The notes beneath the pieces were generated by a model that did no database searches, had not been told where the DNA came from, and was given only the letters and a program-made list of their open reading frames with translations. Positions 4,708 to 52,079 of a stretch of DNA of 64,000 nucleotides are shown here, piece by piece; position 1 is the first letter of the stretch, and the number at the start of each line of letters is the position of its first letter. The DNA lies in contig CADEGF010000007.1 of assembly GCA_902826815.1 (NCBI GenBank), positions 84,155 to 148,154 on the forward strand, in the 5' to 3' direction. A program made the translations under genes and the position numbers. Origin of the DNA: an uncultured Mycobacteriaceae bacterium (GTDB taxonomy: Bacteria; Actinomycetota; Actinomycetes; Mycobacteriales; Mycobacteriaceae).

Positions 4708-6300
4708 TCACAACTGCAGCGTCCGGTCGACGCGGATGTTCTGCAGGAATCTGGCGTCGTGGCTGACGACGACGAACGCACCGCGGTAGGCGTTCAGCGC
4801 GGATTCGAGCTGCGCGATGCTGACGAGGTCGAGGTTGTTGGTCGGCTCGTCCAGCAGCAGCAGCTGCGGCGCCGGGTCGGCATACAGCACGCACGCGAGC
4901 GTGGCGCGCAGCCTTTCGCCGCCGGATAGCACGCTGACGGGCAGGTGAATCATGTTGCCCCGGAACAGGAACTGCGCCAGTAGATGCATCCGCCGCGTCT
5001 CGCTCAACGTCGGCGCATACGAGACCAGGTTCTCGAGCACCGTCCGGTCCTCGTCGAGCAGGTCGAGTCGCTGCGACAGGTAGGCGATCCGCCCGTCGAC
5101 CCGCTGGATGTCTCCGTCATCCGGTTCGAGTTCGCCGGAGATGATCCGCAGCAGCGTCGTCTTCCCCGCGCCGTTAGGACCGACGTGCGCGATGCGTTCA
5201 GGTCCGCGGATGGTGATGTCGATACCGTCGCCGAATAGGGTCCGCCCGCCTCGGCATAACCGTATTCCGTTGCCCACGAACAGGTTACGGCCCGCGGGTA
5301 CCTCGGTTTCCGGCAGGTCAAGCACGATCGACGGATCGTCGCGCAGCGCACGCTCAGCGTCGTCGAGGCGGGTCCTCGCATCGTCGACCCGCGCGGCGCT
5401 CACACCGTCGATGCGTCCGGCGGACTCCTGTGCCCTGCGCTTCATCGCGCCCGCGATGATCTTCGGCAGCCCGGCGTCCTTCACATTGCGCGCCGCGGTG
5501 CTCGACCGGCGCGCAGCGCGTTCACGGGCCTGTTGCATCTGCCGCTTCTCGCGTTTGACCTGTTGCTCTGCGTTGCGCACGGCGCTCTCGGCGAGGCGTT
5601 GGCCTTCGCGCACCGATTCCTCGTATGCGGTGAAATTGCCTCCGTAGAGGTTCATTTCGCCGCGGTGCAGTTCGGCGATGCGGTCCATCCGGTCGAGCAG
5701 CACGCGGTCATGGCTGACCAGTAGCAGTGCCCCCTTGTAGTCGTCGAGCGCGTTGTAGAGCTTGGCGCGCGCACCGGCGTCGAGGTTGTTGGTCGGCTCG
5801 TCGAGCAGCAGGACATCGGGCTGCTTGAGCAGTTCGGCGGCCAACCCGAGCGAGACCACCTCGCCTCCGCTCAGCGAGCCCAGCCTGCGATCGAGTGCAA
5901 CGTGCGCGAGGCCGAGCCGGTCGAGCTGCGCGCGGGTGCGCTCCTCGATATCCCACTCGTCGCCGATTGCGGCGAACACCGCCTCGCCGGCGTCACCGGA
6001 CGCCAGCGCGTCGAGCGCCTCGAGCACGGGTGCGACACCGAGCACGTCGGCCACAGCGCGCTCTGCATCGAACGGCAGCGTCTGCGGTAGATAGCCGAGT
6101 GAGCCGTCGACGGTCACCGATCCGGCCGACGGCCGGTAGGAACCGGTGATCAGCTTCAGCAGCGTGCTCTTGCCTGCGCCGTTGGGTGCGACCAGGCCGG
6201 TATGCCCGTCGCCCACGGCGAAGGACAACTCCTCGAACAGCGGGGACTCCCCCGGCCACGAGAAGGACAGATTCGAACAGACGATGGCGGTTTCAGACAT
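4708..6300 (-). CDS. ABC-F family ATPase
   Basis: A 530-aa protein with two fused ABC ATPase domains and no membrane segment, the ABC-F layout. The first domain has [12 protein letters not shown] (about residues 35-46), LSGGE and [11 protein letters not shown]; the second has [19 protein letters not shown] and [11 protein letters not shown]. The charged linker between them (about residues 230-300, rich in R, K, Q, E) fits the ABC-F interdomain linker. ABC-F proteins act on ribosomes as translation factors or antibiotic-resistance factors (Msr/Vga/OptrA types); which applies here cannot be told from sequence alone. It is convergent with the preceding gene, separated by a terminator-like hairpin. 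Confidence 0.9.
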
Positions 6301-6444
6301 ATGCGGGCTCTCGTGATTGCACGGAAAATGGACGGCAGCATCGATCCGGGCTTCACCCGGAGATGGCGTCAGCTCACATGCCTCCAGAGTAGGCGCGACG
6401 TCAAGCAGATAAGTACCGCCGCAGCCTGCCCGCCGATGGTGCGG

Positions 6445-7911
6445 TCAGCTCGCAGGCGCACCCGCATCCGCGGGGGCCGGGTCGCTTTGGCCTGAGCCGC
6501 TCTGGCCGGCAGCCGAATCGCCATCGCCATGCGACGTCACGGCCTTGACCACAGCTTTGATCGACTTCCTCACCGTTGCCAGCAGCGATCCGTTCGGGCC
6601 GGCGATTCTCGGCTTCGACGGTGTCGACGAATTGCCACCAGGAGTCGCGAACAGCGGCGGCCTCAGCACGTTCAGCTTCGGGCCCGTTCCGTTCGAGTCG
6701 TTCACGGCGCCAGGCCCGGCATCGGCCGTCGGCGCAGGCGGCGTCGCCATCAACGCCTGACCATTGTCATTCTGGTCGACCTCGGCCCCCATGGTCGTCA
6801 TCGCGAGCGGCTGCGCGTTCGTCGTCGGGCTCATCGTCACCGGTGGCCCACCGATCCCGTACGCATCCTGGCCCATCGTGCCGGGACCGATTTGTGGTCG
6901 CGCGGTGTTCAAGGGACGCCCGGCACCGACGTCCTGGAGCCCGTTGTCGAGCCCGGTCATGATCGCGACAGGAATGTTCTTGACGAAGGTGGCCGGGTCA
7001 GGGAAGTAACCGAAGTCGAACGTGGTTGGCTGGCCGGGACTGATGTTCCGGTTGTAGCCCGCCTCAACGAGGAGCCGGACAAGCGGGTCGAGCACATCGG
7101 CGGCGATCGGCCCGACGACCGGGATCATGTCGATCGGCATCAGCAGCGGAACCGGGTACGACGGGATCAGGTAGTACGCGGTGTCACCGTATTCGTCCTG
7201 CAGCACCGCACCGCTCGGGTTGTCGTAGTTGAGGTGAACGAACAAGGTACCCATTGCGGCGTTCGTCAGCGCGAACAGGTTGGTCGGGTTCGTCGGAGCG
7301 TCAGCAATCGGATCGTACTGGCCGGCATAGTCTTTCGTGGTGATCACGCCATCTGCCGCGCCGCTGGTATTGGTGGGGGTCGCCGAGGTGAAGGTCATGT
7401 CGAGACCCGGTATGTACAGCCCTGCCATCCGCGACAGGATGCCGCCGTTGGGCCGGTCCCCGTTCCCGACGAACACGAACTCCGGAACGACGCCGGGCGT
7501 CGGATCGGCGTTGAACGCCTTCTTGTACTCGCTACCGACGACGGCGCCCTGCGAATATCCGAAAATCACCGGTGAAGGGTCACCTGCGGTGGCGAGCTGC
7601 AGGGCCGTCACGCCCTGCCGAACCGACTGATCCCAGGTGGGGTCCGAGAAGCCACCCGGCGACAGCGGGCGCCAAGAGGCCGGGTAGACGACGACGGTCG
7701 GCGGAGTGCCGACGGTCCCGACGCCGTACTGGATGGCCATCCCTTGGATCGCCGGATCGCTGGTGATGTTGAGGATGGGAATCTGGGTGCCTTTCAGGGC
7801 ATGCGATCCCGTCAGTTGCACCGCCAGCGGCATATTGCCCGATAGCCCCATCAGGAGCGCGCAGAGAACGGCCAGCAGCGCTACACCGAGTGTTCGAATT
7901 GTCTTTCGCAT
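6445..7911 (-). CDS. Secreted PE-PPE-domain esterase without PE or PPE module
   Basis: A 488-aa protein starting with a hydrophobic signal segment (residues about 5-32) and continuing directly into a PE-PPE-type alpha/beta hydrolase domain. The nucleophile elbow GYSQGA is at 118-123 (Ser120). Segments such as YPASWRPLSPGG and the later FGYFPDPATF are typical of the domain. The C-terminal 120 residues are low-complexity, rich in P, G, A, S and N. In M. tuberculosis this domain usually follows a PE or PPE module; here there is none, so export is probably by the Sec route. Start ATG has GGGGGAGGG about 5 nt upstream. Substrate unknown; cell-envelope lipid or short-chain ester is a guess. Confidence 0.85.
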   Translation of the reverse strand: MRKTIRTLGVALLAVLCALLMGLSGNMPLAVQLTGSHALKGTQIPILNITSDPAIQGMAIQYGVGTVGTPPTVVVYPASWRPLSPGGFSDPTWDQSVRQGVTALQLATAGDPSPVIFGYSQGAVVGSEYKKAFNADPTPGVVPEFVFVGNGDRPNGGILSRMAGLYIPGLDMTFTSATPTNTSGAADGVITTKDYAGQYDPIADAPTNPTNLFALTNAAMGTLFVHLNYDNPSGAVLQDEYGDTAYYLIPSYPVPLLMPIDMIPVVGPIAADVLDPLVRLLVEAGYNRNISPGQPTTFDFGYFPDPATFVKNIPVAIMTGLDNGLQDVGAGRPLNTARPQIGPGTMGQDAYGIGGPPVTMSPTTNAQPLAMTTMGAEVDQNDNGQALMATPPAPTADAGPGAVNDSNGTGPKLNVLRPPLFATPGGNSSTPSKPRIAGPNGSLLATVRKSIKAVVKAVTSHGDGDSAAGQSGSGQSDPAPADAGAPAS

Positions 7912-8187
7912 AACACCCTCCCCCGGGCACGCACTGTCGTATAGCTATGGTGCAACGTCACAACTCACTATGTAGCAAATTCGCCACATCGGGCGAAGAA
8001 GTCGCATGGCTTTGTCTTTCGGCGAACGTCTCGAACGCCGATACGCGATTCTCGCTAGATACAGGAACATCTTTCACCATCGAAGTAGGCACTGCTTTAC
8101 CTCGCACTAGCCCGACACACTCAAGAAGTCAGCGCGTACAGCAAACTACACCACAAACCGTTGGCTATCCCGAATTGAACTCGTTTC
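7912..8187. other. Intergenic, AT-richer than surroundings
   Basis: 276 bp between the start of the PE-PPE esterase and the 3' end of the dapD paralogue. It holds an inverted repeat TTCGCC-N6-GGCGAA at 7980-7997, about 70 bp upstream of the esterase start, which could be an operator. No gene seen. Confidence 0.4.
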
Positions 8188-9171
8188 TCAGTCGTTCGCC
8201 AGTAGTTCGGCGTTGATGTCGACGCCCTTGCCGGTCCACGGCCAGGCTTCGACCGCGCCGGTGACGGAGTTGCGGCGCAGGTGGAGATTGCTCATCCCGG
8301 CCACCGTGGCCGCAGCGACCGAAGAGCCGTCCGGCCGGAAGACCGCGGTATCCGCGGCGACGTGCAGCCCCGTCTCGACGACGCAGTCATCGCCGAGGGA
8401 TATCTCGACTTCGGCGTTGGCCCCGACGAGGCAGCGCTTGCCGATGCAGATCGTGTGGCCACCGCTGCCGCCACCGACGTCAGAGCCGTCACCGACGACG
8501 ACGCCTGCGGCAACCTGGCCTTCGATGATCGCGCCACCCAACGTGCCCGCGTCGTAATCAACGAAACCCTCTGGCATCACCGTGGTTCCCGGCGCCAGGT
8601 GGGCGCCGAGCTGTACGCGGGCGCCGTCGGCGATTCGCACGCCCGACGGAATCACGTAGTCCACCATCCGTGGCAGCTTGCCGACGCCCTGGACCGTGAA
8701 CGGCCCGAATGCGCGCATGCGCCGATGCACATTGGAAAAGTCATCGGCGGCGATCGGGCCGTGATTCGTCCATACCACGTCGGCGAGCAGTTCCTCGACG
8801 CCGTCGAGGTTGGCTTCGTGAGGTCGAACCATCCTGTGCGACAGCAGATGTAACCGAAGGTAGGCTTCGTACGCGTCGCACGGAGCCTTGGCGAGATCGG
8901 CGATCGTGGTGCGGACCGCAACCACACTGACCTCACTGACCGGGTTACGGCCGATCAACGGCAACAACCGCTCAGGAATCGCGCCGGACGTCAGCATTTC
9001 GACCTCGGTGGTCGGGTAGTGACCCAGTTCCGGTTCTGGGTACCACACGTCCAGAACAGCACCGCTCGGGCTCAGCGACGCCAAACCCGTCGCTGAGGCC
9101 CCTTGGGAGAGCACCGCCTCCCCCGGTACGTCAGGTACCGGGTTCGGCGGTGCTTCTGTATCGATGCTCAT
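8188..9171 (-). CDS. DapD paralogue (divergent tetrahydrodipicolinate N-succinyltransferase-like acyltransferase)
   Basis: A 327-aa left-handed beta-helix acyltransferase clearly homologous to the canonical DapD at 17218-18162: both share DAY(E)[20 protein letters not shown](S/A)GVR and [14 protein letters not shown]. The glutamate of I-I-E-G (E217, matching E196 of the canonical copy) is retained. About nine residues are missing after DGSDVGGG, where canonical DapD has the [11 protein letters not shown] loop. The frame is open to 9582 but ATG 9171 follows the LuxC-like stop codon by 5 nt and gives the family length. It is the last gene of the lux-like operon, so it more likely acylates a product or intermediate of that pathway than serves lysine synthesis (inference). 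Confidence 0.85.
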   Translation of the reverse strand: MSIDTEAPPNPVPDVPGEAVLSQGASATGLASLSPSGAVLDVWYPEPELGHYPTTEVEMLTSGAIPERLLPLIGRNPVSEVSVVAVRTTIADLAKAPCDAYEAYLRLHLLSHRMVRPHEANLDGVEELLADVVWTNHGPIAADDFSNVHRRMRAFGPFTVQGVGKLPRMVDYVIPSGVRIADGARVQLGAHLAPGTTVMPEGFVDYDAGTLGGAIIEGQVAAGVVVGDGSDVGGGSGGHTICIGKRCLVGANAEVEISLGDDCVVETGLHVAADTAVFRPDGSSVAAATVAGMSNLHLRRNSVTGAVEAWPWTGKGVDINAELLAND

Positions 9172-9176
9172 CGCAC

Positions 9177-10733
9177 CTACTTGAGGTTCATTTCCTCGTA
9201 CACCTTCCAGACCTCCATCGGGTCCGGGTTCTCGGTGTCGTCCCCGCGGCCGTAGAACAACCGGTCGTCCTCCTCCACGGGGATACCCCAGAACTTGTAC
9301 TTGAAGGCGACACCGCGCTCGATGGTGACCCACCGGATCAAGCGCGCCAACGGGAACATGCCGTCGTGCGCGAAGCCCGGCCGAGGCCGTCCCGCCCGGC
9401 CCACCTCGGTGATGCGGGCGATGCCAAGGAACGCCAGTTCGTCCGCGAGTTCCATCGCACGCTCCGGCGGGTAGAGCGCGATCGTCTGAGTATGCTTGTC
9501 GACGAAGCCGTACGCCTCTTTCAGGTCCTTCACCGGATGAACGAACATGGTGCGGCTCAACGGATGTGCCGCAATCCTGCACGGCCCGTCGGTCACCACG
9601 ATGGTCCAGCCCGTGCCGCCATCCTTGGGCGTGATGACGTCCCAGCCGCGGAACGCCGACTCACGGCGGGTCCTCGCCACGGCGGCCGCCTCGTCCGCAG
9701 GAACCGGCGGCTTCGGCATCCGCTTGAGGTTGGTGTCCAACCATCGACCCAGCGCCTCGACGTACTCATTCGGGTCCGCTTCGCAGAACGTCTCCTGCGG
9801 GCTGAAGCAGGCGACCTGGTCGTAGATGCTGATGTCGTACGCCGCCTTCATCCCGACGTAGTCGAGATCGGCGCAGTCCTTACCGACCAGGTGCAGGCTG
9901 CGCTTCGGGCCGAACTCGACGAACTCGGTCCCGTAGCGGATGCGCCGCTTGATCGGTTCGATCGACGTCTCGTGACCCCACGCACACACCACATCGGACA
10001 TATCCAGGATCTCGTCTTCGATCGTCGAGCCCGGATCCCAGTAGGCGACGGTCAACGACTTGGTGATCGGGTGGTCGGGCGCGACGGCGATGAAGCTCAG
10101 CGCGAACAGCAGGCTGGTGACGGCATCGCGCTTCGGCAGCTTGGCGATCGTCATGTTCTTGGTCATCACGCTGCGCACGATGGAGAACAGGCCAGCCATC
10201 GGGATGTTGCCGACCATGATGTGGGTGCACTTCCCGCGTGGTTCGGCGTGTAGATACACCGTCTTTCGCGGCAGCCACTCGTCGAGCAGATAGGGGTCCC
10301 CGATCTCGCTCTCGAGCATGTCGTACACCTTGATGCGCCGCAGCGCCGTCGACAGCAGGCCGAGGTCGTAGTAGATGCTCGGACCGACGTATCCGGCTGT
10401 CTCGGCGATGGTCTCGGTCACCAACTGCCGAAATTCGTAGTCCTCGTCGATCCACCTCTTGCAGAGGTCGTTGAGGAAGATCGCGACGTCGTCGATCGAC
10501 AGCGCGGCGATACCCCGATTGTCGGCCTCGCGGATACGCGCGACGTCGGCGGCATCCAGGCGCGGAATGCGAACCTCCATGCTGTCGCCGTAGCTCAGCG
10601 AGATCGTGTTCTCCGGAGTGGGCAGCTTCACCTCACCGCAGACCACGATCGGCAGTTCCAGCACCTTCCCCGAGGGTTCGTCGCGGATCGTGAAACCTTC
10701 TTGAGTCACGGTCCGTTCGAGTTGATCTGTCAT
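9177..10733 (-). CDS. LuxC-like acyl-CoA/acyl-enzyme reductase (fatty aldehyde forming)
   Basis: A 518-aa member of the LuxC acyl-reductase family (aldehyde-dehydrogenase fold). In luminous bacteria LuxC reduces the acyl group passed from LuxE to a fatty aldehyde using NADPH. The likely catalytic cysteine is C309 in DQVACFSPQ; HIMVGNIPMAG (about 171-181) lies in the region expected for nucleotide binding. Length is close to LuxC (about 480 aa). Start ATG overlaps the LuxD-like stop codon by 4 nt (ATGA), and the dapD paralogue begins 5 nt after its stop. No luxA/luxB neighbours exist, so light production is not implied. Confidence 0.87.
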   Translation of the reverse strand: MTDQLERTVTQEGFTIRDEPSGKVLELPIVVCGEVKLPTPENTISLSYGDSMEVRIPRLDAADVARIREADNRGIAALSIDDVAIFLNDLCKRWIDEDYEFRQLVTETIAETAGYVGPSIYYDLGLLSTALRRIKVYDMLESEIGDPYLLDEWLPRKTVYLHAEPRGKCTHIMVGNIPMAGLFSIVRSVMTKNMTIAKLPKRDAVTSLLFALSFIAVAPDHPITKSLTVAYWDPGSTIEDEILDMSDVVCAWGHETSIEPIKRRIRYGTEFVEFGPKRSLHLVGKDCADLDYVGMKAAYDISIYDQVACFSPQETFCEADPNEYVEALGRWLDTNLKRMPKPPVPADEAAAVARTRRESAFRGWDVITPKDGGTGWTIVVTDGPCRIAAHPLSRTMFVHPVKDLKEAYGFVDKHTQTIALYPPERAMELADELAFLGIARITEVGRAGRPRPGFAHDGMFPLARLIRWVTIERGVAFKYKFWGIPVEEDDRLFYGRGDDTENPDPMEVWKVYEEMNLK

Positions 10734-11638
10734 GAGTTTTCCTCCCGATCTAGCGTTTTCTCTTGACGGTTCTTCTCCACTACGTCGTTGAACGAAGGTG
10801 AGACCACCTGTTCGACGTCAATGTCCGCGCCGGTGAGTTCGCGCGCCACAGCAGCGGTGGCCACCGAGAACGCAGTTCGGGCGGCAACAGGGTTGTATTC
10901 GAGCTTGTGAGTCGCCTCGGGCAGGATGTACATCTGGCGCGGCGCCTGCTCGCAGTCCTCGCCGAAGACAGATTCCGCTTCGTCCAGATTGGTCCAGGCA
11001 TCGTCTTCGGCGAACACGTGTGTGATCGGGAAACGGCACTGTGCGACATCATGTTTCGTCGACTCGAGGGAATGCAGATTGTGCTCGATGGCGTCCATCA
11101 CGATCTGGCCTCCCACGTGATAGCCGAGCACTTCACGTGCGTGCGGGACACTGCCCGACAGACCTTCGGCGACGACGTCCTCACCGACGACGGAGTTGAG
11201 CGTGTCCTGCAGGTTCACCACACCGACGAGGGACACCAGCGCTGCGACGTCGGGCAGATCTCGCAGGGCCCGGAAGGCGATTCGCGCACCCATGCTGACG
11301 CTGATGACGCCCACGGGGCCGCGCACTCCCCAGTCGCCGAGGGCGGCGAACACGGAGCGCAGATCATCTGCGGCTGTGGACAGCTTGTAGTCGAAGACGT
11401 GGCCCTCGCTTGCCCCTACGTGGTCGGTGTAGTCGAAGCGCAGCGACCGAAAGCCGTTGAGGGTCAAGAACAGCGACAGGGGACCAAAGTGGCGCATCGA
11501 CAACGCGTAGCTGGGCGCGATGATCACGCACGGGGTCTCAGAATCCCCAGACGCGGGCACCTCAAGCAGGCCTCGAATCCTTTTGCCTGCGCTGTTGCGG
11601 GTCTCCAGAAGAGAGCCCAACTCGGTGAAGGCGGTCAT
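10730..11638 (-). CDS. LuxD-like acyltransferase/thioesterase
   Basis: A 302-aa alpha/beta hydrolase closely resembling LuxD, which in Vibrio diverts acyl groups from acyl-ACP to release fatty acid for the reductase. Recognised by IIAPSYALSMRHFGPL near the N-terminus, LRFDYTDHVGASEG, and VGVVNLQDTL, which nearly matches the GVVNLRDTL of Vibrio LuxD. The triad is visible: Ser115 in SVSMGAR (Vibrio Ser114), Asp212 or Asp213 in AEDDAW (Vibrio Asp211), and His244 in EATHK (Vibrio His241). Both ends overlap neighbours by 4 nt, indicating translational coupling with the LuxE- and LuxC-like genes. Confidence 0.88.
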   Translation of the reverse strand: MTAFTELGSLLETRNSAGKRIRGLLEVPASGDSETPCVIIAPSYALSMRHFGPLSLFLTLNGFRSLRFDYTDHVGASEGHVFDYKLSTAADDLRSVFAALGDWGVRGPVGVISVSMGARIAFRALRDLPDVAALVSLVGVVNLQDTLNSVVGEDVVAEGLSGSVPHAREVLGYHVGGQIVMDAIEHNLHSLESTKHDVAQCRFPITHVFAEDDAWTNLDEAESVFGEDCEQAPRQMYILPEATHKLEYNPVAARTAFSVATAAVARELTGADIDVEQVVSPSFNDVVEKNRQEKTLDREENS

Positions 11639-12825
11639 GACTGTTCCTCCTCTGCGACTTCGGTTTCGCCGTCCATCGCGCGCGCACAGCCGCGCTCATC
11701 GGATGCGGTCACTCTTCGGGTGAAGCTCATCGTCGGCCCTCCTCGCCCGCACTCGCACGGGCCGTGGTCGACCACGCCGAAGTCATCGGAGATGACGAAA
11801 CCCGGGTAGCCGGTGGGCAATGCGTCCCAGTACGCGAGGACTCCCATCTCCCCGGCAGGCACCGGCTGCTGGGTTTCGGAGTCGAGCGCAGCAACGATCA
11901 GCCACGGCGGGATGTGCTTGTGCGCGGCCTCGCACTCGAACACCACCGTGTTGAGTTCGACCATGTTGTAGGCGTCGCGCACAGAAGCCGAGTCCAGGCC
12001 GAGTTGGCCTGCACACCAGGCCCTGAAATCCGCGCTGTCGATCTCTTCGTCGGAGTGCGTCTTCCAACCGCCGCCGGTGACCAACAGGCCGCGGCGCGCG
12101 CCCAGATTCATCGTGATGCCCTGATCGGCGAGGTAGCGCAGCAGGTATACGACGAAGATCGGCGGACCGACGATGATCGGCTGGATCTCTTCGTCCAACG
12201 CCGTCAGGTCGTCGGCCACCTTGCGTGGATCGAATACGCCGTCGACGACGTAGTGCGTTGCCGGGCGCAGCAGGCTGATCAGGCTCATGACGTACGGGAA
12301 CCAAACGTCTCCGGCATCGTCGGTGTCCGGTCCGAGGTTGAAGACGTGCGCTCTGACCCTCAGGTCGAGCAGCTGTTCCGCAGACAGCCGAATGGAGCCG
12401 ACGAATCGTTCCAGGCTGGTGTTGTCGCGGCGGACCCTGCTGATGACGCCCTGCGTGCCGCTACTCCGGCAGACCTTGGCGACGGCCTCGCCGGCGACGC
12501 TGCTGATCGCCTGTTCCTTGAACATCGATGCCGGGATCAGCGGCACCCGGACGATGTCGTCTGGAAACGTCAGCGACTCGGGGTTGACTCCTTCGATAGC
12601 GCAGTAGCGCTGATACTGCTTGCAGTTCTCGTAGTGGTAGCGGAAGGCTTCGGTGAAGACCAGAGCCTGAAATATCCGCGTTCTGGCTTCGTCCCATTGA
12701 TACGGATCGTCTTCGCCGTAGACGACGGTCTCGACTGCTGTTTGAGAACCGAGATAGGCACGTGGGCGCCTGATCCGCGAAGCTTGCGGAAGGTCGATCA
12801 CAACGGATTCATCTACATATGTCAC
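11635..12825 (-). CDS. LuxE-like acyl-protein synthetase
   Basis: A 396-aa LuxE-family enzyme, which activates a fatty acid with ATP to acyl-AMP and carries it as a cysteine thioester before transfer to LuxC. Seen: the adenylate-forming motif SSGTQG (121-126), LLVTGGGWK, AYNMVELN, and a cysteine 16 residues from the C-terminus (C380 in ERGCAR), where Vibrio LuxE has its acylated cysteine. The frame opens at 12930, but GTG 12825 is preceded by GGGGAGG at 6-nt spacing and starts at the expected place; an ATG at 12840 overlaps that Shine-Dalgarno. It is the first gene of the luxE-D-C-dapD2 operon. Confidence 0.87.
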   Translation of the reverse strand: MTYVDESVVIDLPQASRIRRPRAYLGSQTAVETVVYGEDDPYQWDEARTRIFQALVFTEAFRYHYENCKQYQRYCAIEGVNPESLTFPDDIVRVPLIPASMFKEQAISSVAGEAVAKVCRSSGTQGVISRVRRDNTSLERFVGSIRLSAEQLLDLRVRAHVFNLGPDTDDAGDVWFPYVMSLISLLRPATHYVVDGVFDPRKVADDLTALDEEIQPIIVGPPIFVVYLLRYLADQGITMNLGARRGLLVTGGGWKTHSDEEIDSADFRAWCAGQLGLDSASVRDAYNMVELNTVVFECEAAHKHIPPWLIVAALDSETQQPVPAGEMGVLAYWDALPTGYPGFVISDDFGVVDHGPCECGRGGPTMSFTRRVTASDERGCARAMDGETEVAEEEQS

Positions 12826-13109
12826 GCTCAGCCTCCCCATTAGCTGTGATCTTGATTTAGCGCACGATAAATAGAGCCCCACTAGGGACCTATTCATACT
12901 GACGCCTGTGTCAACTAGAGCTATCGGCACAGTACAACCTAGTATCGGTGTGCGTGGCGAAATCTACGGCAAAACTAATTGTGAATTAATTGGACGCCTG
13001 TGTATTACATCGATGGCGTTTGCTATGACAACGCGGTTTGTCTTAATTTGCCTTAATTTTTCACCGGCTCGAGGGCCGGGAATTTTCTGTGAGTTTGCTG
13101 AGCGGACGC
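12826..13109 (-). promoter_or_regulatory. AT-rich leader/promoter region of the lux-like operon with GACGCCT repeats
   Basis: This 284-bp gap is visibly AT-richer than the flanking genes (runs such as AATTGTGAATTAATT and two TTAATTT blocks). The 11-mer GACGCCTGTGT occurs at 12901 and 12993, and GACGCCT again at 13105. On the minus strand a consensus -35 TTGACA is at 12914-12909; the best -10 nearby, TAGGTC (16-bp spacing), is imperfect. I infer the operon promoter and possible regulator sites lie here. No ORF recognised. Confidence 0.5.
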
Positions 13110-15266
13110 CTATTTTTCCGATACGGCAGCTGGCGACTCTAATGCGACAGGTCCTGGGGTGGCGACGTCGGCATGACGATGCTGCGCGAACCTCGGCAGC
13201 CACCAATTGGCGGGACCCATCAGGGTAACCAGGGCGGGCACGAGAAGCATGCGCACAATCGACGCATCAAGGATGATCGCAAACGCCATTCCGATGCCAG
13301 CAATCTTCATCAAGGCAACCTGGGAGAGCCCGGCAGCGCCCGTGACTATGACGAGCAGTGTGGCAGCGGCCGTGATCACGCGGCCCGTCGAGGCAAGTCC
13401 TTCTCGCACCGATTCGACGGTGTCAGCACCCTTTTGGTGCGCTTCCACCATTCGGGCGACGAGAAACACCTCATAGTCGGTGGAGAGGCCGAAGATCACG
13501 GCGATCACCATCACGATCGCAGCCGCGGGAAGCGGGCGCGGGTCGACGCCCAACATCTCGGCGCCATTGCCGTCGACGAAGATCCAGGTGAGCACTCCGA
13601 GGGTTGCGGTAAGGCTGAGGCCCGCCATGACAACGGCCTTGATCGGCAACACGATCGACCGGAACGCGATGAACATGAGCACCAGCGTCGCGGCAATCAT
13701 AATCGCGAGCATGATCGGAAGCCCGTCGAGCACGGCGGTGTTGCTGTCGGCCCGCACAGCATTCTCGCCGCCGATGAGAACTGTCGTCCCCTGCGGCGGC
13801 GGGATGGCTCGCAAGGCGGCGATCGAGTCGCGTGCTTCGTTCGAGAAATCGTCGCTCGACAGCACCGCATGCAGGATCGTCATATCGTCGCCCGCGGCGA
13901 GCGGGTCCACCCGCGTGACGCCTTCGGCCGACTTCGCCTGGCCGGCGAACTCCGCGATGGACGCCTCCGCCGGAGGACCGTTCTCGCCCTTGATGACGAC
14001 CGTCGCGCCGTTGTTCACCAGCGGGAAGTCCCTGGTGATCATCTCCTGGGTGGAGCGAACGGTATTGCTCTTCGGGAGGTCGTGAATGTCGAGGCCGCCA
14101 AAGGCGATATCGCGGATCGGCGAGCTGATCAGCGCCAGCCCGACAACGATAGGCACAGCAACCAGCACCGGCCTGCGCGTCACCTTGGTGGCAAGCGCGG
14201 ACCAGAACTTGTATGCGCGCGCCTCACCGCGCTGAGCGGCTCCGCGCCGCCACGGCAACGCATTGACGCGGTCGCCGAGGATCGTCAGCAGCGCGGGCAC
14301 CGCCGCCAATGACAGGAACGCCGCGATGCCGACCGCCGCGATGGCGCCGAAGCCGACGGACCGAACCATGGACAACCGGAACACCGACATGCCGGCCAGC
14401 CCGACCGCCAGCAGCAGCGCTGAAAACAGCACGGTGCGTCCGGCTGTGGCGATCGTGCGCCGGGCGGCGGCGGCCGGTTCCAGGCCGTGCCTTAGTTCCT
14501 CCCGAAAGCGCGACACCGTCAACAAGCCGTAGTCGATGGCCATGCCGAGGCCGAGGATCGAGGCGGTGTTCAGCGCGAACGCACTCACATCGGTCACCAT
14601 CGACAGCGCATGCAGCGCTCCCAGCGACCCGAAAACCGCCAAACCGCCCACACATACAGGGATCGACGCGGCTACGAACCCGCCGAAGATCACCACCAGA
14701 AGCGCGAGTGTCAGTGGCACTGCGATCGACTCGGCAATGGCCAGATCGTGCTTGGACTCGGAGTTGTACGCGCCCGTCGTCGCACTCTGGCCGGAGAAAT
14801 CGGTCTGCACGCCGGGCACCTGCAGTCCGGGACTGAGGTCGTTGAACAGCTTCAACCGCTGGCTGTCGTCGCCCTTCAGGGTCAGGACGGCCAACGCCTT
14901 CCGGCGGTCAGGTGAGACGAGCCGCATTCGTTGTTGCGGCGCGGATGTCCAATATGCGTCGATCGGCTTTGCCAACATCGACTTGTCAACTGCGTCGAGG
15001 CGTTCGGTGACTTGCGGGGTTATATCGTCGACCGTCTTTCCGACGGGTGCGGTGTACACGAGGACGATGTCGGGAGTTCGGCGGCCGAGGTGTTGGTCGA
15101 CGAGTCGGTCGGCCTGCGCCGACTCGCTTGTCGGGTCTGCGTAGCCGGCGAGGTTGAGCCGGTCAAAGACGCCAAGCCCCCACAGTCCGGACGCCAACAC
15201 CGCACCCACCGTCACGAGGACGACGAGCAGAGGCCTAGTTGTGACTAACCGCGCCCACCTGTCCAT
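13110..15266 (-). CDS. MMPL/RND family transporter (short form)
   Basis: A 718-aa RND-type transporter of the MMPL family, which exports lipids or other hydrophobic molecules using the proton gradient. It has the two-fold layout: one N-terminal helix, a periplasmic domain (about 40-170), a helix bundle with GLGMAIDYGLLTVSRF (about residue 240), a second periplasmic domain and a second bundle with GLSTDYEVFLVARM (about 600). These Asp-Tyr pairs are the proton-relay residues of MmpL proteins. It is shorter than mycolate-type MmpL3 (over 900 aa) and lacks a long C-terminal tail. SD GGGAGGGG lies 8 nt before ATG. The methyltransferase stop is only 28 nt upstream, suggesting one transcript. Confidence 0.9.
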   Translation of the reverse strand: MDRWARLVTTRPLLVVLVTVGAVLASGLWGLGVFDRLNLAGYADPTSESAQADRLVDQHLGRRTPDIVLVYTAPVGKTVDDITPQVTERLDAVDKSMLAKPIDAYWTSAPQQRMRLVSPDRRKALAVLTLKGDDSQRLKLFNDLSPGLQVPGVQTDFSGQSATTGAYNSESKHDLAIAESIAVPLTLALLVVIFGGFVAASIPVCVGGLAVFGSLGALHALSMVTDVSAFALNTASILGLGMAIDYGLLTVSRFREELRHGLEPAAAARRTIATAGRTVLFSALLLAVGLAGMSVFRLSMVRSVGFGAIAAVGIAAFLSLAAVPALLTILGDRVNALPWRRGAAQRGEARAYKFWSALATKVTRRPVLVAVPIVVGLALISSPIRDIAFGGLDIHDLPKSNTVRSTQEMITRDFPLVNNGATVVIKGENGPPAEASIAEFAGQAKSAEGVTRVDPLAAGDDMTILHAVLSSDDFSNEARDSIAALRAIPPPQGTTVLIGGENAVRADSNTAVLDGLPIMLAIMIAATLVLMFIAFRSIVLPIKAVVMAGLSLTATLGVLTWIFVDGNGAEMLGVDPRPLPAAAIVMVIAVIFGLSTDYEVFLVARMVEAHQKGADTVESVREGLASTGRVITAAATLLVIVTGAAGLSQVALMKIAGIGMAFAIILDASIVRMLLVPALVTLMGPANWWLPRFAQHRHADVATPGPVALESPAAVSEK

Positions 15267-15294
15267 AGTTCGACCCCTCCCGTGGTCATCCTGA

Positions 15295-15939
15295 TCACCG
15301 GCCGCACTCCCACACCTCGATGGTTCCGAACACCGATGGCACCCGCGCGACCGAACCCACGGAGGAGAAGGTGTCGCGCATTGCGGCCTCGAAACTGCCG
15401 TCGTGGTTGGACTGCTTGCCGCCGACGGGATCCGACAACGCCGACAGCTTGGACAGGATCACCTGACCGGGTCCGTGATGATGGCCGGTGAAGTCCGCAA
15501 TCACGAACTTGCCGTCCTCGGCGAGCAGGCCATGGATCCGAGCGAACACCTCTTGTTTGGCCTCGAGGTTCAGATGATGCAGGACGAGCGTGCTGTAGAC
15601 CCTGTCGTAGATGCCCTCCAGCGGGCACGTGACGAAGTCGCCAAGCACGAAGTCGATATCGACCCCGGCCTGCCCGGCGCGGTTCTTCGCGACCTTCATG
15701 ATGTCGCGGTTGCCGTCCACCGCGGTGATCGCCACCTTCGGGTGCTCGCTCTTGATCTTGATTGCGAGACGCCCTGATCCGCAACCGAGTTCGAGCAGTC
15801 GTTGTCCGGGCTCCAACTCGAGAGCGTCGACGACGACGTCGCGCATCTTGTTGCCCGCAGGCCAGCGCGCGGTCAGAGGATCGTAAGCGCCTGTGAACCA
15901 CGACGGCCCCAGCGGTTGGATGATGGAATTTTTCGCCAT
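15295..15939 (-). CDS. Class I SAM-dependent methyltransferase
   Basis: A 214-aa Rossmann methyltransferase: motif I LLELGCGSGR at 48-57, an acidic motif II (AVDGNRDI), and VLHHLNLE followed by FVIADF. Annotation as UbiE/type-11-like small-molecule methyltransferase is safe; substrate is unknown. The MMPL gene starts 28 nt downstream, so a modified lipid or small molecule exported by that transporter is a plausible substrate. Its 5' region (15940-16124) carries a short hairpin (GCCGTC at 15970-15975, GACGGC at 15980-15985). Confidence 0.85.
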   Translation of the reverse strand: MAKNSIIQPLGPSWFTGAYDPLTARWPAGNKMRDVVVDALELEPGQRLLELGCGSGRLAIKIKSEHPKVAITAVDGNRDIMKVAKNRAGQAGVDIDFVLGDFVTCPLEGIYDRVYSTLVLHHLNLEAKQEVFARIHGLLAEDGKFVIADFTGHHHGPGQVILSKLSALSDPVGGKQSNHDGSFEAAMRDTFSSVGSVARVPSVFGTIEVWECGR

Positions 15940-16124
15940 AGGAATCGCCTACCCCTGTTTGCGCCGAATGCCGTCGAAGGACGGCGCGCCTGACTGCAAG
16001 CTAACACCGGTATCGCAGATCGGGGGCTGATTCTCGCGAGAAATTTACCTAACGGCAAATTCAAGTGACCGCGACCATCCAGGTGTCTCACAGCCGAAAA
16101 CCGTTGCTGTGGCTAATGCTGGCG

Positions 16125-17192
16125 TCAAGCGGTCAAGTAGCGCCGCAACATGTCCGTCGCCGCGGTGATCTGCGCGACCTCAACCCGCTCATCGACACGG
16201 TGCGCAAGGTTCGGGTCACCGGGGCCGAAGTTGACGGCAGGCACGCCAAGCGCCGCGAATCGCGCCACGTCCGTCCAGCCGTATTTGGCGCGCACCTGCC
16301 CGCCCGCGGCCTCGACCAGCGCAGCGGCGGCGGGTTTCGTGAGCCCCGGAAGCGCGCCAGCGGCGGCGTCGGTCTGCTCGATCTGCACATCGAGACCGTC
16401 GAGGACTTCGCGCATGTGTTGGCCCGCCTGTTCGACGCTTCGGTCGGGCGCGAAGCGGAAGTTGACGGTGACCGACGCGGCGTCGGGAATGACGTTGCCT
16501 GCCACCCCGCCGTCGATACGCACCGCCGACAGACCCTCGCGGTAGACACAGCCGTCGATGTCGACGCTGCGCGCCCGGTAGGCGGTCAGCCGATCGAGCA
16601 CAGCACCGAGTTTGTGAATCGCGTTGTCGCCCAACCACGACCGCGCCGAGTGCGCGCGGGTGCCGGCTGCGCTGACGACGACGCGCAGCGTGCCCTGACA
16701 GCCCGCCTCGATGAATCCGCCAGACGGTTCACCGAGTATCGCGACATCGGCGTGCAGCCACTCCGGCAACTCGCGCTCGATGCGGCCCAAACTGTTCGCG
16801 GAAGCCTCGATTTCCTCGCAGTCGTACATGACCAACGTGATGTCGTGGGCCGGGTCACCGACGGTGGCCGCCAGGTGCAGGAACACCGCGTCGCCCGACT
16901 TCATGTCCGAGGTACCGCAGCCGTGCAGTTCGCCGCCGCTGCGGCGGCTCGGCACGTTGTCGGCGATGGGGACGGTGTCGAGGTGTCCGGCCAGGATCAC
17001 CCGCGACGGCAGGCCGCGGTCCGTGCGGGCGAGCACGGTATTGCCGGTGCGGACGATCTCGAACCCCGTGGTCTGTTCGCGAAGCGCGGCCTCGACCTCG
17101 TCGGCGATGCGCCGCTCGTCGCGCGACTCGCTGGGGATGTCCACCAGCGCCGCGGTAAGCCCTATCGGGTCGCCATGCAAGTCCAGGCCCAC
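16125..17192 (-). CDS. dapE: Succinyl-diaminopimelate desuccinylase (DapE)
   Basis: A 355-aa M20-family metallopeptidase that hydrolyses N-succinyl-LL-2,6-diaminopimelate to LL-DAP and succinate in lysine and cell-wall synthesis. Metal and catalytic motifs are visible: [21 protein letters not shown] and DCEEIEAS. The frame runs on to 17423, but the extension is antisense to dapD; the GTG at 17192 gives the expected start ([10 protein letters not shown]...) and has a -10 hexamer TAGCCT ending 8 nt upstream, with no ribosome-binding site. Divergent from dapD with 25 bp between start codons. Confidence 0.92.
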
Positions 17193-17200
17193 ACCCGTTG

Positions 17201-17210
17201 AGGCTAGTCT
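17201..17210. promoter_or_regulatory. Overlapping divergent -10 boxes of dapE and dapD
   Basis: The 10-bp AGGCTAGTCT holds TAGCCT on the minus strand (17206-17201, 8 nt before dapE GTG) and TAGTCT on the plus strand (17205-17210, 7 nt before dapD GTG). The hexamers share two base pairs. Both genes look leaderless, so polymerase opening at one promoter should exclude the other. Confidence 0.6.
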
Positions 17211-17217
17211 TAGCGTC

Positions 17218-18162
17218 GTGACCTCAGCTTCAGGTATCGGCTTAGCGACGATTGCCGCGGACGGATCCGTGCTGGACACGTGGTTTCCCGAGCCGCAGCT
17301 GAGCGGGGAAGGCGCGTCGGGAACGGTGCGGCTGTCGGCTGCCGAGATCCCCGATGAGCTGACCAGCATGATCCGCCGAGACGAGGACCGCGGCACCGAG
17401 ACGGTCGCGGTGCGCACGGTCATCGAGTCACTCGACGACCAGGCTGTCGACGCCCACGACGCCTACCTGCGACTGCACCTACTGTCACACCGCCTCGTGC
17501 GCCCACACGGGTTGAATGCGGACGGCTTCTTCGGCGTGCTCGCCAACGTGGTGTGGACGAATTACGGTCCCTGCGCCGTGGCGGGCTTCGAGATAGTTCG
17601 GGCCAAGCTTCGGTCCCGCGGTCCGGTCAACGTCTACGGCGTCGACAAGTTCCCCCGCATGGTCGACTACGTGATACCGGCAGGCGTGCGGGTCGCCGAC
17701 GCCGACCGGGTTCGGCTGGGAGCACACCTTGCCGACGGCACAACGGTCATGCACGAGGGCTTCGTCAACTACAACGCGGGCACACTCGGAAAGTCGATGA
17801 TCGAGGGGCGGATCTCCGCGGGTGTGGTGGTCGGCGACGGCAGCGACGTGGGCGGCGGCGCCTCCATCATGGGCACCCTCTCAGGCGGCGGCAAAGAGGT
17901 GATTTCAATCGGCCAGCGCTGCCTGCTCGGTGCGAATTCCGGGCTCGGCATATCCCTCGGTAACGACTGCGTAGTCGAAGCCGGCCTCTATATAACAGCG
18001 GGCACAAAGGTCACGTTGCCCGATGGTGCGGCCGTCAAGGCAGCAGACCTGTCCGGCGCCGACAATCTGCTGTTCCGTCGTAACTCCGTTTCCGGCGCCG
18101 TCGAGGTGGTCGCGCGGGACGGCACCGGCATCTCGCTCAACGAGGCGCTGCACGCCAACTGA
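17218..18162 (+). CDS. dapD: 2,3,4,5-tetrahydropyridine-2,6-dicarboxylate N-succinyltransferase (DapD)
   Basis: A 314-aa trimeric left-handed beta-helix enzyme that succinylates tetrahydrodipicolinate with succinyl-CoA in the DAP/lysine pathway. Length matches M. tuberculosis DapD (317 aa). It retains the expected catalytic glutamate (E196, in SMIEGR) and the intact [11 protein letters not shown] loop with G219, which correspond by offset to E199 and G222 that I recall as important in the M. tuberculosis enzyme. GTG 17218 is chosen because TAGTCT lies exactly 7 nt upstream, giving a leaderless mRNA; the longer open frame is antisense to dapE. It ends at 18162, directly abutting the convergent sdaA stop. 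Confidence 0.93.
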
Positions 18163-51194: not shown

Positions 51195-52079
51195 TTATCC
51201 GAGACTCAATCCTGCAAGCAGGTCGGTCTCCCAGCCGCGGTGGTCGCGGTCGCCGGGTTCTCCGGAGACAAGTATGTAGTGCTCCTCGGCCAGGATGGGC
51301 AGCGCGATGTTGTTCGACAGCGCGAACGATCTGCCGTTGGAAGCGACGTTGACCTGGGTGGCGTGGGCGCGCATCGCCGCGGTTTTGGCGGCGATGTGGT
51401 CGCCGGCATCGATGACGGCGTCGATCTTGTCGTCGGGATAGCCGAACGGGACAAGGTCGATGGTCACGCGCACCCAATCTTCGGGCGCGCCGTCGAGATT
51501 CTCGAGACCGTCGCCCATCGCGCTGGTGGCGGTGACGGTCCAATAGAACTTGGGCACGCGCCAGGGTTCACCCGGGTAGTCGGTGCCTGCCGACGCGGCG
51601 ACGGCGTCGGTGGTGACGCGGTGGGCCTGAATGTGGTCGGGATGCCCGTAGCCGCCGTCGGGGTCATAGGTGACGACGACGTGCGGCCGCAACCGGCGGA
51701 CGATCGCGACGAGTTCGCCGACCGCCTCCCGCATATCGGCGTCGGCGAAGCGTTGACGGTGCCGCGGTGCCGTGCCTTCCATACCGGAGTCGCGCCAATG
51801 CCCCGGTCCGCCAAGGAAATTCGGCTCTTTGACTCCGAGCGCTTGAAGAGCATTCGTCAGCTCGCTGATGCGATATCCACCGAGCTGGTCGGCGGCGTCA
51901 ACGGCCAGCTGCGCGTAGCGCTCGCCGATGACTTCGCCCTCCTCGCCGAGGGTGCAGGTGACGACGTGAACGTCGGCGCCCTTTGCGATGTAGTGAGCGA
52001 TGGTGCCGCCGGTGGTCAGCGTTTCGTCGTCCGGGTGGGCGTGAACGAAGAGCAGGCGAGGGGCTTCGCGCGTGGACAT
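51195..52079 (-). CDS. mshB: GlcNAc-inositol deacetylase (MshB), mycothiol biosynthesis
   Basis: A 294-aa zinc deacetylase of the LmbE/PIG-L family that removes acetate from GlcNAc-Ins in mycothiol synthesis. Zinc ligands are visible in HAHPDDET (H15, D18) and a later [11 protein letters not shown] 52079 is preferred over the in-frame ATG 52091: TATGTT (52092-52087) is a -10 hexamer 7 nt upstream of 52079 and contains the other ATG, so the transcript should be leaderless. Confidence 0.93.

Follow-up and report, generated by a model that had tools for sequence, protein, structure and literature searches.

In the known LuxCDE fatty-acid reductase complex, LuxD carries out the acyl step, LuxE activates with ATP and LuxC, in complex with LuxE, performs the NADPH-dependent reduction; LuxD acts through a Ser-Asp-His triad, LuxC through a Cys and LuxE through a C-terminal Cys, and LuxD is known as equipment of luminous bacteria. 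We describe here a luxE-luxD-luxC set carried by an uncultured Mycobacteriaceae bacterium, on a 64,000-nucleotide stretch of its DNA (contig CADEGF010000007.1, positions 84,155 to 148,154; this whole stretch is hereafter called the window). The nearest published mycobacterial lux-like locus that we found is mel2 of Mycobacterium marinum, which, according to the part of the source available, contains a LuxA/LuxB-related protein and LuxC-, LuxD-, LuxG- and LuxH-like domains, has no clear LuxE, and plays a role in oxidant defence (PMC1793995). In the open full-text literature, as far as its texts were accessible and with subscription journals mostly outside this coverage, no luxE-luxD-luxC set is reported from a mycobacterium or another actinobacterium; this silence is weak evidence of novelty.

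We observed that luxE (acyl-protein synthetase, 11635..12825), luxD (acyl transferase, 10730..11638) and luxC (acyl-protein reductase, 9177..10733) are consecutive on the reverse strand with 4-nt overlaps at the luxE/luxD and luxD/luxC junctions, exactly as the original prediction had described them. A dapD-like gene starts 5 nt past the luxC stop, close to it and without overlap. Purine-rich, ribosome-binding-like sites precede luxE (GGGGAGG), luxD (GAGGAGGAA) and luxC (GGGAGGAAA), and a weak one stands ahead of the dapD-like gene; the site in front of luxE supports its GTG start at 12825. By Pfam profile search the three proteins matched LuxE (229 bits, E = 1e-67, cut-off 24.9), Acyl_transf_2, the LuxD family (121.9 bits, 4e-35, cut-off 20.3) and LuxC (279.1 bits, 7e-83, cut-off 21), all far above the cut-offs. 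Their solved relatives are 7xc6 for LuxE (chain E, 224 bits) and LuxC (chain A, 230 bits) and 1tht for LuxD (114 bits), and their top NCBIfam matches are LuxE (263.5 bits), LuxD (131 bits) and LuxC (287.7 bits).

To compare active sites, we aligned each protein with its counterparts from Micromonospora trifolii and from luxCDE reporter genes on an Escherichia coli plasmid. The plasmid record gives product names only, and we take these reporter genes to be those of Photorhabdus. In the three-row alignments, Cys380 near the C-terminus of LuxE, Ser115, Asp213 and His244 of LuxD, and Cys309 of LuxC are invariant. Pairwise identity of the window proteins is 25-35% to the Micromonospora set and 29-36% to the reporter. 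Membership of the three fatty-acid reductase families with intact catalytic residues, as had been predicted, is thus confirmed.

It had also been noted that luxA is missing from the window. With the LuxA profile we detected no match within the window (the LuxB and LuxG profiles were not run), and the absence extends to the whole genome, where 25 places match, none of them well; the best reaches 61.7 bits, compared with 227 bits for a LuxA-like protein of Micromonospora on the same model.

How rare is this set? Its rare member is LuxD. In 198 genomes of the genus, a search for LuxD at E <= 0.001 gave five matches, of which the sole full-length one is the window's own protein (666.8 bits), the other four reaching only 20-25 bits. 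A LuxD profile search of 396 genomes of the phylum (E <= 1e-8, run with no positive control from Gammaproteobacteria) gave three matches, the window's own again being the single full-length one (483 bits) and the two remaining partial (44 and 38 bits). For LuxC, 63 of 396 genomes of the genus matched at E <= 1e-10, the window's included (best other 2.3e-47, window's own 0), so that roughly every sixth genome of this sample has a LuxC-family reductase; in the order, 26 of 397 genomes matched, with the best other at 5.4e-76 (G679). The genome samples overlap, each covers only part of its group, and only the best few candidates per genome were scored. A second case of the four-gene order luxE-luxD-luxC-dapD-like, whose conservation the original prediction had proposed to survey, was not found in the sampled genomes. 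The host's possession of its own LuxD is of interest beside an unpublished remark, in the part of the source available, that plasmid-borne luxD is toxic in mycobacteria (PMC2875389); according to this source, M. smegmatis can produce light when given luxAB together with luxCDE.

Three LuxC relatives from the genus were viewed in their surroundings. The NCBIfam LuxC model gives them 131-162 bits, compared with 288 for the window LuxC, and by eye they stand among dehydrogenase-like genes. The genes upstream of them match no Pfam family (3/3) and no NCBIfam model (two tested) and are therefore not LuxE by these models; the idea of LuxE-LuxC pairs in other mycobacteria was dropped. We also scanned 84,980 species with two LuxC peptide patterns, a narrow search that can miss relatives, maybe even the window's own record. 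It returned 105 stretches and 16 relatives, namely Micromonospora trifolii NIE79 (34%) and 15 Pseudomonas (21-27%). In a quick LuxC tree (59 rows, one a duplicate, with long-branch warnings), the Micromonospora and reporter LuxC grouped together (98) and the window LuxC was sister to them (84). A plasmid origin was set aside: by tblastn against 72,556 plasmid records, LuxC was found in 52, all below 60% identity and none mycobacterial among the 30 listed, and the single LuxD record, from a plasmid of E. coli K-12, is the luxCDE reporter already mentioned. So was a viral origin, since six pattern matches yielded no relative in viral contigs.

The closest relative of the whole set that we found is that of Micromonospora trifolii NIE79, where luxE, luxD and luxC follow in the same order (L052:11448-15094); luxD and luxC overlap by 4 nt, and luxE is separated from luxD by 123 bp. 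Its LuxC is nearer the luminous type than the window LuxC (404 vs 288 bits), and a family search with it around Micromonospora recovered, at E <= 1e-40, just one of 101, namely itself. After luxC come two genes for AroB-like cyclases, glycosyltransferase-like genes and aminotransferases. An rRNA-dimethylase-type gene flanks the set on the left. On the right there are a DesII equivalog (780 bits against a cut-off of 450) and a long gene that looks, by eye, like a modular polyketide synthase, so that the lux genes are placed within biosynthetic clusters or between them. The LuxA-like oxygenase (L053:3481-4542) is encoded 8.4 kb past luxC and its 227 bits compare with a LuxA cut-off of 600. As an observation in its own right, the region L052:11448-17525 together with L053:3481-9835 could harbour aldehyde-oxygenase chemistry in a natural-product cluster.

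In the window, the four genes had been presented as an operon. They are indeed located as described, but they are not the whole unit: they belong to a block of seven co-directional genes of about 9.8 kb (the island, 6301..16124), in the order methyltransferase, MmpL, luxE, luxD, luxC, dapD-like and PE-PPE. The island is bounded by an ABC-F-type ATPase gene, named by eye (4708..6300, reverse strand), and by dapE (16125..17255, reverse strand, exact start not fixed; TIGR01900 520 bits, cut-off 304), beyond which lies the canonical dapD (17218..18162, forward strand, exact start not fixed; TIGR03535 529.6 bits over 17200-18162, cut-off 441.5). By a DNA search of 61 relatives, the ends of the ABC-F and dapE matches are 34-877 bp apart in 13 of the 15 other same-genus genomes having both, among the matches listed; the two exceptions, G006 and G015, have only a weak ABC-F match (65-66%), located elsewhere. 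Gene calls at four of the 13 loci (G011, G013, G027, G028) place no island gene between ABC-F and dapE. Outside the genus, four genomes have both genes, not adjacent among the matches listed. Since ABC-F and dapE adjoin in relatives, the lineage of the window probably acquired the block by insertion; its loss from the other lineages is the less simple alternative. In addition, 1.5-4.4 kb separate the dapE match from the dapD match in six same-genus genomes (G005, G017, G018, G019, G029 and G036), so the region may be a recurrent insertion site. A mobile element was considered and rejected: the sole tRNA of the window, at 51348, does not border the block, and no listed short repeat pair connects its two ends.

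The fourth gene (8188..9171, reverse strand) had been called a dapD paralogue. Its product is indeed a whole-length DapD homologue, with the left-handed beta-helix acyltransferase fold, 49-60% identity to 14 DapDs and 3fsx as solved relative, but it has lost most of the residues with which DapD binds its substrates. It scores 365.5 bits on TIGR03535, under the equivalog cut-off of 441.5, compared with 529.6 for the canonical DapD of the host. Among solved structures, this canonical protein is best matched by the M. tuberculosis enzyme, which together with the gene content points to a mycobacterial host. When 98 same-genus genomes were searched at E <= 1e-30, the dapD-like gene of the island was the sole second copy of a DapD-type gene; at the same threshold, 18 genomes outside the genus yielded a single DapD each, except for one genome that yielded none. 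Of the 129 columns that are near-invariant among 34 DapDs, 37 are changed in the DapD-like protein, and in eight of these the cause is loss of the loop SxMGTLSGG. A leave-one-out control gave 5 changed columns of 125 and 5 of 124 for the DapDs that came next in deviation.

The substrate-contact residues are known from Pseudomonas aeruginosa DapD complexes, as given in the part of the source available (PMC3281039), and we mapped their numbers by hand through PDB alignments. The seven side chains in question bind succinate and aminopimelate or set their orientation, and all seven positions are invariant in 34 of 34 DapDs. In the DapD-like protein, five of the seven are replaced or deleted: Asp168 becomes Gly164, Asn209 becomes Asp205, Arg223 becomes Gln219, Ser241 is deleted, and one arginine of a pair (in VRLG) becomes Gln187. 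The second arginine (in GVR) is retained; the pair was assigned by motif and is unsure, because by our count of the chain the published positions Arg181 and Arg193 are not occupied by arginine. Glu221, the catalytic Glu facing the substrate amine, is kept as Glu217. The protein is thus probably no longer a DapD: it appears to have lost most clamps for the succinate and aminopimelate carboxylates while retaining the catalytic acid, which would most naturally be read as an N-acyltransferase with other substrates. A local duplication of dapD was discarded, since 17 same-genus DapDs form a clade (97) excluding the DapD-like protein; its branch is very long and a long-branch error is possible.

Three other proteins complete the island, all encoded on the reverse strand. 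The MmpL-family (RND) transporter (13110..15266, 718 residues; Pfam MMPL 232.5 bits) has MmpL3 as its best NCBIfam model (545 bits, cut-off 1400). Among 148 same-genus genomes, its nearest relative is a G109 protein at 56% identity, followed by one at 43%. In G109 this relative belongs to a three-gene run (L103:9923-19924) with a polyketide synthase (Pfam domains KS, AT, DH, ER, KR and carrier) and a BioF/serine-palmitoyltransferase-type synthase; this neighbourhood ties it to a lipid-like product, and the run possibly makes an exported amino-ketone lipid. The methyltransferase (15295..15939, 214 residues; Pfam Methyltransf_25, 60.8 bits) is S-adenosylmethionine-dependent. A PADLOC search for a defence role covered six of the seven island proteins (all but MmpL) and gave matches for the methyltransferase only: mad2 at 79.1 bits, along part of that profile, and oMTase at 20.9 bits. 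This probably reflects no more than the shared methyltransferase domain, and a defence role of these six proteins was rejected.

The PE-PPE-domain enzyme (6445..7911; Pfam PE-PPE 159.2 bits) has a signal-peptide-like N-terminus, read by eye, and matches the NCBIfam acyltransferase PE model weakly (38.1 bits, cut-off 580). No other match at E <= 1e-110 appeared among the 148 same-genus genomes, weaker relatives being unlisted, so it is not a core gene. Chp2 of M. tuberculosis is likewise of the PE-PPE type. It transesterifies diacyltrehalose at the periplasmic face in an MmpL10-dependent pathway, as described in the part of the source available (PMC4183827).

We therefore consider, at about even confidence, that the island encodes a fatty-acid reductase which works without luciferase and feeds the synthesis of an acylated lipid or signal for export, the block being a lipid-making and lipid-exporting module. 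LuxD would hydrolyse or transfer an acyl group, LuxE would activate the fatty acid with ATP and hold the acyl on Cys380, and LuxC would accept it on Cys309 and reduce it to a fatty aldehyde. Because no luciferase was found, the aldehyde, or an alcohol or amine derived from it, would be incorporated in a lipid or signal molecule. The DapD-like protein might then N-acylate an amine of the product, with an acyl-CoA donor other than succinyl-CoA; the methyltransferase would decorate the product, the MmpL protein would export it, and the secreted PE-PPE enzyme could transfer or remove an acyl group outside the cell, as Chp2 does in the MmpL10 pathway. The substrates, the order of the steps and the joint action of the seven genes are those that the gene families and their layout suggest. 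Several observations point this way: the three families with their intact catalytic residues, the translational coupling and the ribosome-binding-like sites, the single co-directional block absent at this place in relatives, a LuxC nearer the LuxCDE type than its same-genus relatives, the lipid-like context of the nearest MmpL relative, the Chp2/MmpL10 precedent, the residue changes of the DapD-like protein with its catalytic Glu kept, and the presence of the Micromonospora set among biosynthetic genes.

Other observations weigh against this proposal. The NCBIfam scores of LuxE, LuxD and LuxC stay under the equivalog cut-offs (550, 420 and 750 bits, respectively), so that by this criterion the window proteins are no orthologues of those of luminous bacteria, and the grouping of the window LuxC with the LuxCDE type comes from a quick tree with a support of 84 and long branches. 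The GC fraction of the block is 0.632 versus 0.654 outside, a gap within one standard deviation of 1-kb windows (0.033). A scan of the block for sigma-70-type promoters gave one site for 1.7 expected, and this site is outside the gap upstream of luxE. MmpL relatives at E <= 1e-100 exist in 106 of the 148 same-genus genomes, so an MmpL gene beside lux genes could be there by chance. The island holds no aldehyde-consuming enzyme (aminotransferase, alcohol dehydrogenase or wax synthase) and no polyketide synthase. Finally, we found no second genome with the island, and the joint function of its seven genes is therefore left without the support of conservation.

The layout of the block bears on an alternative that we regard as unlikely, in which the aldehyde serves within the cell, as a signal itself or as the source of a fatty alcohol, wax ester or alkane, and the four non-lux genes of the block are unrelated passengers. 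With the 284-bp AT-rich stretch between mmpL and luxE (12826..13109, GC 0.479, possibly a promoter region) and the 276 bp that precede the PE-PPE gene, the block may be transcribed as more than one unit, again a point against a single module, and no conserved order ties the genes together, because neither a second LuxD in the genus and phylum samples nor a second DapD-like gene in the 98 same-genus genomes was found. However, the dapD-like gene starts just behind luxC, the seven genes share one direction within one block, and, in the part of the source available, the wax esters of M. tuberculosis are assigned to fatty acyl-CoA reductases of another kind (PMC3522743), which lessens the need for LuxEDC there. 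The Micromonospora set, close to AroB-like cyclases, a DesII equivalog and the presumed modular polyketide synthase, suggests another account: the complex may reduce a specialised acid, a polyketide or a modified acyl chain on a carrier protein, in a natural-product pathway partly encoded elsewhere. The polyketide synthase adjoining the nearest MmpL relative fits with this; however, the island lacks a carrier protein or synthase and the Micromonospora genes are merely 25-35% identical to those of the window, and we judge this account rather unlikely.

A use of the aldehyde by a luciferase-like oxygenase encoded elsewhere in the genome, in an oxidant defence resembling that of mel2, seems improbable to us. 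The composition and the role of mel2, as far as the source goes (PMC1793995), and the 25 genomic matches to the LuxA model speak for it, but the best of these reaches only 61.7 bits, none is in the window, and mel2 has no clear LuxE. Lastly, the occurrence in one genome only and a slightly low GC fraction, even if within one standard deviation, would suit a relic, that is, a horizontally acquired lux fragment with no present function. This we hold to be very improbable: the frames are open, the catalytic residues are retained and ribosome-binding-like sites are present, and that relatives only 25-36% identical have the same residues at the active site points to selection over a long time.

If the island indeed makes and exports an acylated lipid or signal, its genes offer a direct route to an as yet undescribed exported mycobacterial lipid, and the DapD-like enzyme, judged from its residues, would be a clean case of a lysine-pathway enzyme apparently redirected to a new substrate. 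The complete LuxE-D-C sets in a mycobacterium and, among biosynthetic genes, in Micromonospora suggest an independent life, present or past, of the aldehyde branch of bioluminescence. A wider proposal, which we put forward tentatively and consider doubtful, is that actinobacteria have a LuxEDC branch without luciferase that provides fatty aldehydes as a general supply for specialised lipids that are secreted. In the mycobacterium described here, the aldehyde would be converted into an amine or amino lipid and N-acylated by a repurposed DapD fold with a neutral acyl-CoA, and an MmpL-PE-PPE pair would export and finish the product, which would represent a novel class of envelope lipids or signals in mycobacteria; the lux aldehyde genes would then have a non-luminous origin or a non-luminous side-branch.

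When compared with known systems, the locus shares with luxCDABE (PDB 7xc6 and 1tht) the three adjacent subunit genes and the catalytic Cys, Ser-Asp-His and Cys; in contrast, its order is E-D-C instead of C-D-A-B-E, no LuxA was found, and its proteins, 29-36% identical to the reporter luxCDE, are under the NCBIfam equivalog cut-offs. With the Micromonospora trifolii set it has in common the E-D-C order, the 4-nt D/C overlap and the catalytic residues, whereas Micromonospora has the 123-bp E-D gap, AroB-like cyclases next to the set and a LuxA-like oxygenase about 8.4 kb away. Both mel2 and our locus are lux-like genes in a mycobacterium; unlike ours, as far as the source on mel2 goes, mel2 shows its LuxC and LuxD similarity at the level of domains, has a LuxA/LuxB-related protein and has no clear LuxE, while at our locus the LuxA model detects no luciferase-like gene in the window. 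Compared with DapD (PDB 3fsx and 3r5a), the DapD-like protein is without five of the seven substrate side chains and without the loop holding eight near-invariant positions, and keeps the full length and the catalytic Glu. Finally, the block has an MmpL exporter and a PE-PPE-type enzyme in common with the MmpL10-Chp2 acyltrehalose pathway, as described in the part of the source available (PMC4183827); it has no polyketide synthase and adds LuxEDC to this pair.

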